Shown: positions 23,854-57,510 of the stretch, piece by piece
How positions within the stretch are numbered: the stretch's first letter is position 1
Layout: the number at the start of each line of letters is the position of its first letter
NCBI GenBank assembly: GCA_026393975.1
Contig: JAPKZD010000002.1
Coordinates: forward strand, 1 to 57,510
DNA length: 57,510 nt
Reading direction: 5' to 3'
From: Candidatus Aminicenantota bacterium
GTDB lineage: Bacteria; Acidobacteriota; Aminicenantia; Aminicenantales; Saccharicenantaceae
Program-made: the position numbers and the translations under genes
The notes under the pieces: model-generated
Seen by the model: the letters and a program-made list of their open reading frames with translations, nothing else
Told to the model about the DNA's origin: nothing
Database searches by the model: none

Positions 23854-25203
23854 ATGATCCCGATCAAACGTAATATCCCATGTCTCACCATCGCCGTTTC
23901 TATTCTGGCCGCGGCTTTCGCCCAAGCTCTTCCCCAAACCCAGGCCCCAGCGGCCCAGTCTCAGGCCCAGGACCAGGCTAAAGACCCGGCCGACAAGCCC
24001 GACCCGACGCTGACGCTCAAGATCGGCAATCCCAAGCTCAAGGACAAGACCATGGAGGTGGGGGTCGGCGCCGTTCTCTCCGCAGAAACGGGCGCGGCCG
24101 TCGGCTTCGAGAGGATGATCGGGGAGATGCGGTCGGCGCGCATCGTCCACGTCGGGGAAACCCATAACTCCATGCCCATGCACGAGATCCAGTTCCAGGT
24201 CCTCCGGGCCCTCTACGCCCAGGACCGGCACCTGGCTGTCGGCCTGGAGATGCTCCCGGTGACCGTTCAGGAGACGCTCAACAAGTGGACGGCGGGCATC
24301 CTGACCAAAGACGAGTTTAGCCGCGAGGTCGGCTGGTACGTCAACTGGAACTTCAACTTCGGCTACTACGAGAAGATCTTCGATTTCGCCAGGGAGCACC
24401 GCCTGCCCATCTACGCCCTGAACATCCCGCGCGAGATCATCACTAAGATCAGGATGCGGGGCTGGGACGCGCTGACCGAAGAGGAGCGGGTCCTCATCCC
24501 GACGGCGCCCGACCTCACGAACCAGGACCACCGGGCGCTTATCCGGGCCGTCTTCGAGAGCTCCGACCTTCCTCCCCAGATGAAAGGAGTCGGTCTCGAC
24601 ATGGTCTTCGAGGGCCTTTACAGGTCCCAATCGGCCTGGGACGAGGTCATGGGGGCCAACGCCGTTCGGGGCGCGGAGAGCGAAGGCCGGCGACTCGTCG
24701 TCTGCGCCGGTTCAGGCCATCTCCTCTACAACCTCGGCCTCAACCGCCGGGCCTACGAGAAGTCGAAAATGCCCTTCAAAACGGTCATCGCCGTAGCCAT
24801 CCCGGCCGGGAAGAAAACGCTGACCGTTTCGAGGACGCTCGGCGACTACGTCTTCGGCCTGGCGGAGGAGGAAAAGCCGGCCTTCCCGACGATCGGCCTG
24901 AGCTTCAAGAAAGTCGATAACCTGGAGAACTTGGTCATCGACGCCAAGCCGACGGACGGGGCGGCCAGCCGGGCCGAGTTCGAGAAAGGCGACGTCGTCC
25001 TCTCCGTCGACGGCAAGGGCTATACGGACATCAACGAAATCCGGATGGAGCTGGCCAAGCTCAGATGCGGCGGCGAGGTCAAGTTCAAGGTCCTGCGGGC
25101 CGGCCAGATCAAGGATGTGTCGCTCAAGTGCGAGAAGAAACCGCCGGACGTGTCGGCCGAGAAAAAAGGTTCTTCTCCCGCTTTCGGGGAATCACGGCAG
25201 TGA
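23854..25203 (+). CDS. Secreted ChaN-family protein with C-terminal PDZ domain, 449 aa
   Basis: A signal peptide (residues 1-24, ending AAAFAQA) is followed by a Gln/Ala-rich linker and then the ChaN/EreA-like fold: RIVHVGETHNSMPMHEIQF at about 96-114 with GETH and a later His-Glu pair, then AVGLEML. Late in the domain VVCAGSGHLLYNLG gives the last conserved His. ChaN proteins bind haem or act in iron handling, and the wider Tiki/TraB-like superfamily contains metallopeptidases; the exact activity here is open. Residues about 345-430 form a PDZ domain (GLSFKKVDN, FEKGDVVLSVDGKGYTDINE). Fusion to PDZ suggests a peptide-handling periplasmic role. An independent promoter precedes it. Just after the stop lies a structured repeat. 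Confidence 0.8.
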   Translation: MIPIKRNIPCLTIAVSILAAAFAQALPQTQAPAAQSQAQDQAKDPADKPDPTLTLKIGNPKLKDKTMEVGVGAVLSAETGAAVGFERMIGEMRSARIVHVGETHNSMPMHEIQFQVLRALYAQDRHLAVGLEMLPVTVQETLNKWTAGILTKDEFSREVGWYVNWNFNFGYYEKIFDFAREHRLPIYALNIPREIITKIRMRGWDALTEEERVLIPTAPDLTNQDHRALIRAVFESSDLPPQMKGVGLDMVFEGLYRSQSAWDEVMGANAVRGAESEGRRLVVCAGSGHLLYNLGLNRRAYEKSKMPFKTVIAVAIPAGKKTLTVSRTLGDYVFGLAEEEKPAFPTIGLSFKKVDNLENLVIDAKPTDGAASRAEFEKGDVVLSVDGKGYTDINEIRMELAKLRCGGEVKFKVLRAGQIKDVSLKCEKKPPDVSAEKKGSSPAFGESRQ

Positions 25204-25216
25204 ATACCGCCCCTTT

Positions 25217-25317
25217 CCCCCCGGCCCCCCGGGAACCAGTCCCGGCGGTTCCCCCATCGGCAAAATGCCGATGGGCCCCCCTCCACTACGGGGGTCTTCA
25301 GGGCGGCATTCACCGCC
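25217..25317 (+). repeat. Structured intergenic element R1, copy 1
   Basis: About 101 bp that recur in inverted orientation at 30343-30436. The first 29 bases are identical in both copies and contain the stem CCGGGA-ACCAG-TCCCGG. Three further hairpins follow: CCCATCGGCA/TGCCGATGGG around AAA, CCCYC/GRGGG around the loop shared with copy 2, and GGCGG/CCGCC around CATTCA. The last stem is GGCGA/TCGCC in copy 2, a compensatory G-C to A-T change. The element begins 13 bases after the ChaN-PDZ stop and ends 110 bp before the next start codon. Confidence 0.75.
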
Positions 25318-25427
25318 ATGTGATATTCCCCGAAATCAGGAGAAAAACCAAAAAAAATAGCTCGATCGAGGTGGCACGGAATTCGTCCGGAGTGAGACAT
25401 AAAGAAACGAAGTCGGAAGGAGGAGCG

Positions 25428-27131
25428 ATGAAGACAAAGAACGCCAATATACTGATATTCATCATCTTAGGCTTAGGCTGGGGACTGTCCCTCTTCGGGG
25501 GACAGTCCCTCTTGCCGACCCCGGCCGAGGAAGCGAGCTACCGGCAGTACACCCAGAACGAGGCCATCGCCGCCTTCCTGAGCCGCCTGGACGCCCTTTC
25601 GCCCGGACTCTCGGTCCAGGTCGTCGGCCGGACGCTCCCGACGGATGAGTATGCCGCCCGGGACATCTTCTTGGCCATCCTCAGCCAGAATGCCGCCGCG
25701 AGCCCCGAAGCCCTCGACCGGGCCAAACCCACGGTCCTGTTCACGGCCGCCCAGCACGGCAACGAGCAATCGGCCAAAGAAGCGGTCCTTTGGATCCTTC
25801 GGGACCTGGCCCAGGGCGACCTCCGGCCGCTCCTTGAGAAAGTCAACGTTCTGGTCATGCCCCAGACCAACCCCTACGGCAACTTCATGAACATAAGGGC
25901 GAACGAGCTCGGCCTGGACATGAACCGCGACCACATCAAGCTCGAAGCCGAGGGCGTCCGGGCCATCCACCGCGTTTTCCGGGCCTGGATGCCCGAAGTG
26001 ACGATCGACGTCCATGAGAAGGGCGACGACTATTACCGGGTTTCGATCGGCTGCGTCTCGAACGTCAACGTCGGATGGGACCTCCAGGACTTCTCCCGGA
26101 AGGTCATCCTGGCCGAGGTCGAAAAGAGCCTGAAGAAAAAGAACTTCACTTTCCACGAGTATCTGGTCACCGAGGACCTGGGCGTCGACACGTCGTCGGG
26201 CGCCGCCTACGGACGGGGAGAGGCCGGGCCGCGCGAGGAGATGAAACGGTACTCGACGACCGACATCAACGACGGCCGGAACAGCTTGGGCATCTTCGAA
26301 ACGCTGTCATTCATCCAGGAGGGCGCCTCCCGCCACGACCTGGAAACTCTCCGGGACAGGACGCGCTGGCAGTACAATGGCCTGCGGGCCTTCCTCGAGT
26401 CGGTGGCCGGGCACGCCGCCGAAGTCCTGAAAATGGTCAAGGACGACCGAGCACGCCTGCTCGAACGGGCCGCGGCGCCGGCTGAAAACGACGTCGTCCA
26501 TCTCCGGATGAAGTTCGCCCGCGACCCCGCTCAGCCGGAGCTTCTCTTGAAGAGGTTCGAGATGGTCGCCTCGCCCATCCGGGGCGTCCTCAAAGTGGAT
26601 AAGAAAGCGGGGGAGACCCTCTCGGCGGGGGACATCGCGCCCTATCCCGAGCCGCCCACCGTCAAGGTCGTCGACGAGGTCGTCAAGCACTGGTTCCCCG
26701 GCGTCGAGCCGACGCTGTCCGTGGCGCGGCCGCGCGGCTATATCATCCGCGGCGACCGGCTGGACATCGTCGAAACCCTCCTTGCCCTGGGCGTCGAGGT
26801 CGGGACCTTCGACAAGAGCGGGCTCGTCGATGCTGAATTGTACGAGGTCAAGGACATCGTCCCGGCCAAGCTGGACTATCTTGCGCCCGAGAAAATCGAA
26901 GTCGCCAAGAAGGCCCTGCCAACGGCCGTCCAGAAGGGCGATTTCTACGTGGCCTGCGCCCAGCCGGCGGCGAACCTCGTGCCCTGCCTCCTCGAGCCCC
27001 AATCGGAGTTCGGCCTCATCCGCTATTGGATGTTCAAGCTCGTGCCCGAGGCCGGCGGGGTCTTCCCGATCTTCCGCGTCGCCGGGAGCCCGGCGCTCCC
27101 CATCACGCCCTACAAGCGCTGGAAGTCTTGA
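25428..27131 (+). CDS. Secreted M14-like zinc carboxypeptidase, 567 aa
   Basis: This is a zinc peptidase of the M14 class. Expected ligands are H110 and E113 (AAQHGNE) and H196 (IDVHEKG). The substrate-binding NPYGN is at 148-152 and MNRDH at 165-169, and FETLSF carries the likely catalytic Glu. A second domain of about 200 residues follows (from about 340) and is not assignable. The start at 25428 has AAGGAGG upstream; a longer open frame reaching into the ChaN gene is not used. The signal region reads MKTKNANILIFIILGLG and then WGLSLFGGQSLL. The second part is encoded by a GGGACTGTCCC inverted repeat, so an intergenic palindrome seems to have inserted in the signal peptide. The stop TGA abuts the stop of the convergent DUF5107 gene. 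Confidence 0.8.
   Translation: MKTKNANILIFIILGLGWGLSLFGGQSLLPTPAEEASYRQYTQNEAIAAFLSRLDALSPGLSVQVVGRTLPTDEYAARDIFLAILSQNAAASPEALDRAKPTVLFTAAQHGNEQSAKEAVLWILRDLAQGDLRPLLEKVNVLVMPQTNPYGNFMNIRANELGLDMNRDHIKLEAEGVRAIHRVFRAWMPEVTIDVHEKGDDYYRVSIGCVSNVNVGWDLQDFSRKVILAEVEKSLKKKNFTFHEYLVTEDLGVDTSSGAAYGRGEAGPREEMKRYSTTDINDGRNSLGIFETLSFIQEGASRHDLETLRDRTRWQYNGLRAFLESVAGHAAEVLKMVKDDRARLLERAAAPAENDVVHLRMKFARDPAQPELLLKRFEMVASPIRGVLKVDKKAGETLSAGDIAPYPEPPTVKVVDEVVKHWFPGVEPTLSVARPRGYIIRGDRLDIVETLLALGVEVGTFDKSGLVDAELYEVKDIVPAKLDYLAPEKIEVAKKALPTAVQKGDFYVACAQPAANLVPCLLEPQSEFGLIRYWMFKLVPEAGGVFPIFRVAGSPALPITPYKRWKS
25481..25509. repeat. GGGACTGTCCC palindrome, copy 2 (intragenic)
   Basis: GGGACTGTCCC (25481-25491) and GGGACAGTCCC (25499-25509) are perfect inverted arms with TCTTCGG between. 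Both are followed by TCTT. The first 16 bases are identical to 11581-11596. The palindrome is read in frame as part of the M14-like peptidase signal peptide. Confidence 0.75.
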
Positions 27132-30290: not shown

Positions 30291-30342
30291 CGCGAATCAA
30301 TGAAGGATCATCTCCCGTTCAAAGGGAAGTCCGACATGAGGC

Positions 30343-30436
30343 GGCGATGGATGTCGCCCTGACGACCCTCGTAGCGGAGGGGGCTCGCCCTTCGGGCGTA
30401 GGAACAACCGGGACTGGTTCCCGGGGGGCCGGGGGG
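30343..30436 (-). repeat. Structured intergenic element R1, copy 2
   Basis: This is the minus-strand copy of the element at 25217-25317. It shares the first 29 bases exactly, then shows a different but still paired second hairpin (CGCCC-GAA-GGGCG), CCCTC/GAGGG, and GGCGA/TCGCC around CATCCA. Read on the minus strand it begins 61 bases after the APC permease stop. Both copies therefore sit in the same orientation behind the gene that precedes them. Confidence 0.75.
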
Positions 30437-30497
30437 CTAGAGGCGATATCCTTCGCAAAGCCGAATAGAGGATTTCCCCCGAGTCGGGAGATGAAAC

Positions 30498-32468
30498 CTA
30501 AATATTTATGCGGATCGGCAGGATGACGGTCGTGATCCCCTTCCAGCGGAGTTCCTGCTGGATGGCGAAGGCCGTTTCGTTGTGGAGGATCCGGTTGACG
30601 ATGCCGGGCCGGCGGAAGACCGTCTGCCCGGCGAAGACGGTGGATTTGGGGAAGTCGCGGGCGACGGACTGGCAGAGGGCCGAGGCCGTTTCGACGACAT
30701 CGATGCCCATGTCGTGGCGCGACTCGGCCGGGAAGCCGAGGCGGCGGGCCAGGTCGACGTACTTCTTGAGGGCGTCGCAGGTCGAACCATCCAGGCAGGA
30801 GACGGCCTCGGTCCCCTTGAAGGCCCCGGCGTCGACCTCGGAGACGGAGATGAAAACGAAGTTTTTATAAAGCCCGGGGAAGCCTCGGATGATCGATAAA
30901 AACGTGTGAACTCCGAAACCGTTGTAGCCGCTGACGAGCTGGATGGCCGTCATCTCCGTCGGGTCGGCCGGGTCCTTGTTGTAGGTGCCCTTGTGGGGGA
31001 TGGCCACGAGCATGTCGTCGAGTTCGCGGACGCCGGTGCGGACCTTATTGTAGTGGCTCTTGATGAGGTAGCAGAGAATGACCACGACCACGGTAATGAC
31101 CAGGGTCAGCCAGCCGCCGCGGGTGAACTTTTCGAGGGTGGTGACGATGAGGATGGTCAGGCACAGGACCAGGCCGGTGAGGTGCACGGGCAGGTGCTTT
31201 TTCCAGTGCGGTTCCTTGCGCCTGTTTTTGATGAAGAACCGGGACATGCCCAGCTCGGAGAGTGAGAAGGTCAGGAAGACGTTGATCGAGTACATGACGA
31301 CAAGCGTCGAGATCCTGCCCCGGGAATAAATAAGGAGGGCGATGGCCGAGCCGCCCATGAGCAGGACGCCGTTCTGCATGGTCAGGCGAGAGGATAGCGA
31401 GGCGAAGCGGTGGGGGAACCAGTAGTCAACAGCCATGTTGCCCATGACCCGCGGACCGTCGACGAATCCGGTTTGAGCCCCGACGAGGAGCAGGGCTCCT
31501 TCGGATAGGATCGTGATCAGGGCCAGGATGGATCCGATGCCCCAGCCGGCGAAAATCTTGCCCGCCAGGACCGCGTTGAGAGTTTTTCCGGCCACGGGGG
31601 AAACGCCTAGCAGCAAATAACAGACGAGTATCCCGCCGGCGGTGATGGCCAACGATGACGCCAGATAGACCATGGTCTTCTTGCCGTTGTGGACCCGGGG
31701 CTCACGGAGGATCTGAAGCCCGTTCGAAACGGCTTCGATCCCGGTGAAGGTGCCGCCGCCCATGGAAAAGGCCCTGAGAAAGAGAAGGAGCATTCCCCAA
31801 CCGCCCAGGGATACGAGCCCGGCCCTGTAGTCCCCCTGGATTTGTTGAGCGACCGCGCCGACTTGGCCGACATGGGAGAAGATACCGTAGCCGATCATCA
31901 GAACATGAGTGACGATGAAGGTCAGGAAGATCGGGGCCAGCATCGTCACGGATTCCTTGACGCCTCGGAGGTTGATGATGACCAGGAAAAGGATGGCCCC
32001 CACTTCGAAGGCCGTCTTGTACGGCTGCCAGGTCATGGGGAAAAAGCTAAAGATAGCGTCGCCGCAGGAGACGATCGAGACGGTGATGGTCAGCATATAG
32101 TCGACGAGAAGGGCGCTTCCGGAGAGGACGCCGGCTTTTTCCCCCAGCGTATGGGTGGCGACGATGTAGCCGCCGCCGCCCGACGGGAAGTACTCGATGA
32201 TGCGCGAATAGGCGTAGGAGATAATGAAGACCGTCAGGGCCGTGGCCAGGGCCAGGGCAAGGGCCAGGTAGGAGTGCTTGCCGAGGGCCTTGAACGCTTC
32301 TTCAGGCCCGTAAGAAGCGGACGACAGGCCGTCGGCACCGAGGCCGATCCAGGCCAGGATCGGGATCAAGGCCAGCTTGTGGAAGATGGACGGGTCCTTG
32401 AGGTTGCGCGGCTTGCCGATGAGCGTCCGCTTGATCCTGTCCCCGAAGCTGCCGTTCTCTTCGTTCAT
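30498..32468 (-). CDS. APC-superfamily permease, KimA/YdaO-like, 656 aa
   Basis: A polytopic membrane protein with about 12 hydrophobic segments in residues 30-480 and a soluble C-terminal domain of about 170 residues. The start of the transporter core (LAWIGLGADGLSSASYGPEE, then FPSGGGGYIVATHTLG) resembles the KimA/YdaO family of proton-coupled potassium importers, whose members are often controlled by c-di-AMP in other phyla. Potassium as substrate is inferred from this resemblance only. The C-terminal domain (MLVAIPHKGTYNKDP through ILPIRINI) looks like a regulatory domain. The ATG at 32468 lacks a clear Shine-Dalgarno site. No c-di-AMP riboswitch is seen in the upstream 117 bp. Promoter candidate at 32527-32552; element R1 follows the stop. 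Confidence 0.75.
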   Translation of the reverse strand: MNEENGSFGDRIKRTLIGKPRNLKDPSIFHKLALIPILAWIGLGADGLSSASYGPEEAFKALGKHSYLALALALATALTVFIISYAYSRIIEYFPSGGGGYIVATHTLGEKAGVLSGSALLVDYMLTITVSIVSCGDAIFSFFPMTWQPYKTAFEVGAILFLVIINLRGVKESVTMLAPIFLTFIVTHVLMIGYGIFSHVGQVGAVAQQIQGDYRAGLVSLGGWGMLLLFLRAFSMGGGTFTGIEAVSNGLQILREPRVHNGKKTMVYLASSLAITAGGILVCYLLLGVSPVAGKTLNAVLAGKIFAGWGIGSILALITILSEGALLLVGAQTGFVDGPRVMGNMAVDYWFPHRFASLSSRLTMQNGVLLMGGSAIALLIYSRGRISTLVVMYSINVFLTFSLSELGMSRFFIKNRRKEPHWKKHLPVHLTGLVLCLTILIVTTLEKFTRGGWLTLVITVVVVILCYLIKSHYNKVRTGVRELDDMLVAIPHKGTYNKDPADPTEMTAIQLVSGYNGFGVHTFLSIIRGFPGLYKNFVFISVSEVDAGAFKGTEAVSCLDGSTCDALKKYVDLARRLGFPAESRHDMGIDVVETASALCQSVARDFPKSTVFAGQTVFRRPGIVNRILHNETAFAIQQELRWKGITTVILPIRINI

Positions 32469-57388: not shown

Positions 57389-57510
57389 GGCTGATTTTGG
57401 AGGTATTTTTTTTGCTAGATAATCTTCTGAGCAATAAGTTTTAAGGCCCGTTTCAGATATTTACCAGAAGTGTGGCTTCGAGTCGCTCCGCCGCACTTCT
57501 GCCGGTCGCT
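57389..57510. other. AT-rich window end without a gene
   Basis: I see no start codon with a ribosome-binding site here. An inverted repeat AGAAGTGTGGC (57466-57476) / GCCGCACTTCT (57490-57500), with one G-T pair, lies at the edge and may belong to the next feature. Confidence 0.5.

Follow-up and report, generated by a model that had tools for sequence, protein, structure and literature searches.

R1, a probable MITE-like palindromic DNA element with co-changing arms in Aminicenantes and Elusimicrobia

The two window copies and their gene context

The window, which is the whole 57,510-nucleotide stretch that was analysed, carries two copies of a palindromic repeat, R1, located at the ends of a ChaN-PDZ gene (identified from Pfam) and of an amino-acid permease gene (Table 1). 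The initial annotation had described R1 as an element of two copies sharing 29 identical leading bases, and this identity was confirmed, as bases 25217-25245 and the reverse complement of 30408-30436 agree at 29/29 positions. The two sequences given for its hairpin 2 (CCCATCGGCA/TGCCGATGGG for copy 1, CGCCC/GGGCG for copy 2) could likewise be read in the window. Similarity between the two copies was well above chance (blastn E 5.8e-17, query 25205-25330); however, the same query revealed 27 matches in this genome, and the count of two was therefore incorrect. The motif CCCCCGGGAACCAGTCCCGG occurred 25 times in the genome with up to 3 mismatches, compared to one occurrence of the reversed control. 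Both copies were also longer than had been described (Table 1), and similarity among members of the copy-1 subtype (3 copies, 2 genomes) stopped exactly at the ends of copy 1. The supposed last stem, GGCGG/CCGCC, did not form a separate hairpin; both strings lie within one arm of the outer stem P1, and their partner is the other arm.

Table 1. Coordinates of R1 and its parts in the window
Feature	Position	Strand	Details
R1 copy 1	25168..25349	+	182 bp, GGTTCTTC...AAAAACC; C-rich strand +, G-rich strand -
Putative left target-site duplication AGAAAAAA	25160..25167	.	right partner AAAAAAAA, 7/8 match
Putative right target-site duplication AAAAAAAA	25350..25357	.	flank comparison
P1 left arm (terminal inverted repeat), copy 1	25168..25213	+	
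P1 right arm, copy 1	25297..25349	+	
Branched core, copy 1	25217..25294	-	P2, joining strand GTAGTGGAGGGGG (G-rich strand), P4, P3 (alignments A1, A2)
P4 hairpin, copy 1	25253-25262 with 25266-25275		
P3 hairpin, copy 1	25231-25237 with 25247-25253		
R1 copy 2	30305..30498	-	194 bp; G-rich strand = +
Branched core, copy 2	30366..30436	+	P3 30401-30405 with 30417-30421; P4 30386-30390 with 30394-30398
ChaN-PDZ ORF end within R1	25168..25203	+	GSSPAFGESRQ-stop; RPE-stop in relative G162

Copy 1 encodes the last 11 residues and the stop of the ChaN-PDZ product, in place of which the relative G162 has the ending given in Table 1, while the permease stop codon (30498-30500) takes its final base from the last position of copy 2 (30498). 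Thus, the position behind the stop, as first reported, was partly created by R1 itself. A common orientation of the two copies behind the stops had also been pointed out. Analysis of 51 copies revealed no orientation preference relative to genes, and the agreement of the two window copies can therefore be regarded as chance. No predicted gene overlapped the R1 core in 51 copies when a simple gene finder was used.

Fold and distribution of R1

Folding of 24 copies from this genome and 32 copies from other genomes revealed one common plan. A long outer stem, P1, surrounds a short helix, P2, a variable hairpin, P4, which corresponds to hairpin 2 of the initial annotation, and a hairpin, P3, with the stem GGGAACC/GGTTCCC. 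These helices are connected by unpaired conserved strands, the main one of which is GTAGCGGAGGGGG on the G-rich strand. The structure-preserving covariation that had been noted from two copies was strongly confirmed in alignment A1 (46 copies), where 91.8% of the cells were paired compared to 78.6% after shuffling, and two-sided cells numbered 256 against 67 in the shuffles. In the outer stem, 17 of 18 P1 pairs showed two-sided changes in A1, and slid controls were much lower. Distant copies had P3 changed on both sides (GGAAACC/GGTTTCC), together with a changed P3 loop. Two other pairings were tried and rejected. Hairpin H3 (CCCCC/GGGGG around TCCGCTA) was mismatched in Elusimicrobia and in several other copies, P2 pairing with covariation instead, and the alternative CCGGGA/TCCCGG for P3 was set aside as GGGAACC/GGTTCCC alone was kept by distant copies.

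The covariance-model search of this genome and its relatives that had been proposed with the initial annotation found many further copies. The genome itself, which its relatives place in the Aminicenantes, gave 34 matches with E values of 1 or less; some of these are opposite-strand matches to a copy already counted, and the number of copies is therefore approximately 25. With the same approach, 12 of the 396 genomes searched from the phylum of this genome contained the family, as did 36 of the 295 from the Elusimicrobia phylum. The Elusimicrobia genome G397 was the source of 92 matches, or approximately 90 copies, and at least 16 matches each were obtained from G396 and G162. Plasmids, phages, and viral contigs (IMG/VR) were also searched and contained no R1, and the Rfam covariance models revealed no relative at either gathering or permissive thresholds.

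Other repeats could be seen alongside R1. The contig end (window 57468-57510) carries a second hairpin repeat, GGCAGGGAGCGGATTC...GAGCGGC.CGAAGCCGC, which also occurs inside or beside several R1 copies (L007, L019, L022, L024, L026, L056, and L077), often at the R1 joining strand. In G397, several copies (L248-L253) carry a different nested hairpin insert of ~48 nt in the joining strand, and these copies, which form a 171-nt class, appear to have spread together with the insert. Three genomes of a sister genus contain tandem arrays of partial R1 units at two sites ~26 kb apart (L146 10620-11250, L147 3760-4230, L149 3250-3700, and L150 13800-14400), in which mostly the end unit alone closes a complete outer stem.

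Duplications, empty sites, and the mobility of R1

The flanks of the G397 copies were scanned across all registers for duplications. One register gave the best match, with 8/8 positions identical in 26 of 41 copies and 7/8 in 6 of 41, which corresponds to target-site duplications of 8 bp. The ends of R1 in this genome read G[TA]AAGGGTTTAGC...GCTAAACCCTTAC, and the outer stem P1 represents the terminal inverted repeats. For the window-type Aminicenantes copies with ends GGTTCTTC...GAAGAACC, the 8-bp flanks matched at 71 of 112 letters compared to 40.7 after shuffling, and none of 20,000 shuffles (0/20,000) reached the observed value. The duplication flanking copy 1 is A-rich and weak when taken alone, its significance coming over 14 copies. 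No duplication was found in the flanks examined of type A copies, which have GACGCC ends; a weak signal for inverted extensions was seen there (p ~0.02, orthologs included). The terminal five bases of the G397 repeats vary freely (GTAAG, GAAGG, GAAAG, GTAAA), unlike the remaining arm, and apparently do so independently at the two ends.

Comparison with relatives revealed empty sites. In the 95%-identical G162, window site 1 reads GAGAAGAAGCGTCCGGAGTGA and the element is absent, and the same site was empty in five other members of the genus. G400 holds at site 1 a copy that is 97% identical to copy 1, within flanks that are 82-84% identical, while the closer relative G162 is empty; the history of this site is therefore not simple. 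Site 2 contained no element in G162 and diverged copies in G403 and G400, one of them with a different core between similar arms. Moreover, for 9 of 33 young copies in G397, a reading frame stays uninterrupted across the joined site. The mobility of R1 is well supported.

R1 showed terminal inverted repeats, target-site duplications of fixed length, and many dispersed copies without a transposase gene, the features of a MITE. It resembles MITEAba12 and bacterial MITEs (PMC6382973) in being short and non-coding, in having terminal inverted repeats, target-site duplications, and many copies, and in its A/T-leaning targets and ability to fuse to adjoining ORFs. It differs from them in being very G+C-rich, in having a strong branched core common to two phyla, in arms that drift in concert, and in that no parent IS was found among the families searched (IS66 and Y1_Tnp). 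A search of open-access papers found no report on MITEs in Aminicenantes or Elusimicrobia, and R1 adds a MITE-like family common to both.

Members of the IS66 family have GTAA ends and produce 8-bp duplications, and the GTAA-like ends and 8-bp duplications of R1 therefore suggested IS66 as the mobiliser. This candidate was rejected, as the IS66 transposase (PF03050) was absent from six R1-bearing draft genomes. The likeness lies in one Elusimicrobia subtype, which has G[TA]AAGGG ends and makes 8-bp duplications, whereas the ends of other subtypes are GGTTCTTC or GACGCC. The searches for mobiliser families covered IS66 and Y1_Tnp. A search for R1 ends in G397 returned pairs at element spacing or contig ends, among the matches listed.

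Concerted arm change and the competing explanations

Changes in the arms were counted in young copies, with 51 G397 copies and 26 arm pairs in each giving a total of 1326 pairs. Among these, 22 single changes and 30 double changes were observed, and all of the doubles (30/30) were Watson-Crick changes that restored pairing. Independent mutation at the rate of the 22 singles would be expected to produce ~0.1 doubles compared to the 30 seen. The doubles were spread over 11 copies, at least 7 of which had private changes, and two of them could not have passed through a G.U intermediate, namely those in L226 (adjacent dinucleotide) and L237 (a transversion, A to C with T to G). At orthologous sites in DNA of 92-96% identity, the P4 loop was inverted (GAGA versus TCTC), and in another ortholog pair P4 was wholly replaced.

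Template switching homogenises the arms of inverted repeats and inverts their spacers, and multi-base compensatory changes and loop inversions are its footprints (PMC8794818, PMC8604942). R1 has both in common with the template-switch hairpins reported in these studies and differs from them in that its palindrome is mobile and is present in dozens of young copies, in which singles and doubles can be counted directly. Based on these footprints, arm-to-arm template switching is likely to keep the R1 arms matched, an effect that may be reinforced if matched ends are selected whenever the element transposes.

Taken together, R1 is very probably a non-autonomous palindromic MITE-like DNA element that is mobilised in trans. 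P1 would act as the terminal inverted repeat pair, and a transposase supplied in trans would insert the element by a staggered cut, producing the 8-bp duplications. Because R1 is a long hairpin, template switching during replication may copy arm onto arm; the stems would then stay matched while their sequence drifts, and hairpin loops would be flipped or replaced. The branched core on one strand is the probable recognition target of a protein or of the transposition machinery. The core was more constrained than the arms, and the same core was present inside unrelated terminal repeats in two phyla. Against this explanation, no transposase or autonomous partner was found by the searches for IS66, Y1_Tnp, and the G397 ends. 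Furthermore, the P1 sequences are very different between subtypes, and a single sequence-specific transposase is therefore hard to imagine. The lack of a duplication in the type A flanks and the complex history of site 1 also speak against it. A less likely form of recognition, put forward tentatively, is by shape, where an enzyme acting in trans would bind the three-way junction that the G-rich strand forms at the core, whether in RNA or in single-stranded DNA. If this is true, the terminal repeats would be free to drift as long as the arms match, which would explain one conserved core within wholly different terminal repeats in two phyla. Why the branched core is constant while the terminal repeats change completely is the question posed by R1.

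Among kinds of sequence evidence for a functional RNA, stem covariation is regarded as the strongest. The arms of young R1 copies change in concert, far beyond independent mutation, so that their covariation cannot serve as evidence for RNA, nor is RNA selection needed for the stems. R1 represents a natural counter-case: when intergenic repeats are screened for covariation, the structure reported can be one that is kept by a mutational mechanism. It also provides a countable system for bacterial template switching. The initial annotation had offered selection on RNA or on hairpin DNA; the mobile hairpin-DNA element was the better suggestion, while the stems do not require selection on RNA.

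It is nevertheless conceivable, although rather unlikely, that R1 is primarily a structured non-coding RNA of the G-rich strand with a selected fold, spreading as a mobile RNA gene. The joining strand GUAGCGGAGGGGG and the P3 stem are conserved across two phyla, the P3 of distant copies changed in a compensatory manner (GGGAACC/GGUUCCC to GGAAACC/GGUUUCC), and an A-U/G-C change in P3 could be seen between orthologs. Single mismatches read on the G-rich strand were G.T in 113 cases against A.C in 40 in the first set, counts that are uncorrected for shared ancestry, and 11 against 6 in young copies. This excess hints that the G-rich strand folds and is not predicted by pure arm copying. Pairing of the joining strand with the P3 loop, as a possible pseudoknot, gave Watson-Crick runs of 107 compared to 94.8 when permuted (p 0.002), but p was 0.2 with wobble pairs included, and the pairing fits some classes (GUUG:CAAC, UUGCG:CGCAA) and fails in the commonest class. 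The lack of an orientation preference and of an Rfam relative also speaks against the RNA, and arm copying explains the stem covariation in young copies. In the preferred explanation of a mobile DNA element, recognition of the branched core may still take place on RNA or on single-stranded DNA.

The initial annotation had also suggested a REP-type palindrome moved by RAYT, a Y1 transposase, which is now very improbable. R1 resembles REP/BIME in being palindromic and intergenic, and its conserved core strand starts with GTAG or GTGG, similar to the GT(A/G)G head of REPs (PMC2817692). Y1_Tnp matches were present in 9 of 10 R1-bearing genomes searched. However, the GTAG of R1 is located inside the junction and not at the element end, where the REP head would stand beside a single imperfect hairpin, and R1 is far longer than a REP. 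None of the 28 Y1_Tnp matches had R1 inside ~1.5 kb, so that no RAYT gene flanked by R1 was found at these matches, and no Y1_Tnp match was obtained in G162, a genome with at least 16 copies of R1. Moreover, the R1 duplications are exactly 8 bp, and a Y1 transposase is not known to leave such exact 8-bp duplications. With the Y1_Tnp matches unlinked, or absent in G162, and the 8-bp duplications present, the RAYT version was unsupported. The RAYT-like Y1 gene of this genome (L085, C15:194765-198088; 919-1863 and flanks) has on both sides a near-perfect 60-nt palindrome, AAGAAGGTACCAGGTCTACGCAATGCCAATTTTGGCATTGCGTAGACCTGGTACCTTCTT, which is unrelated to R1.

A fixed, non-moving host element, such as a terminator or a protein-binding or chromosome-organising palindrome, would fit the 51 copies without predicted gene overlap (simple gene finder) and the sites occupied in several species, but is scarcely credible and, for the young copies, is contradicted by the empty site in a close relative, the 8-bp duplications, the burst to ~90 near-identical copies, and the insertions into open frames.

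Two minor observations concern neighbouring genes. A half copy of R1 (L027 1501-1570, C21 of this genome) appears to be fused in frame to the beginning of an ORF that carries a signal-peptide-like sequence. In the window, a small inverted repeat, GGGGACTGTCCC...GGGGGACAGTCCC, is located at 25478-25512 near the 5' end of an M14 peptidase gene and is present in G162 as well.
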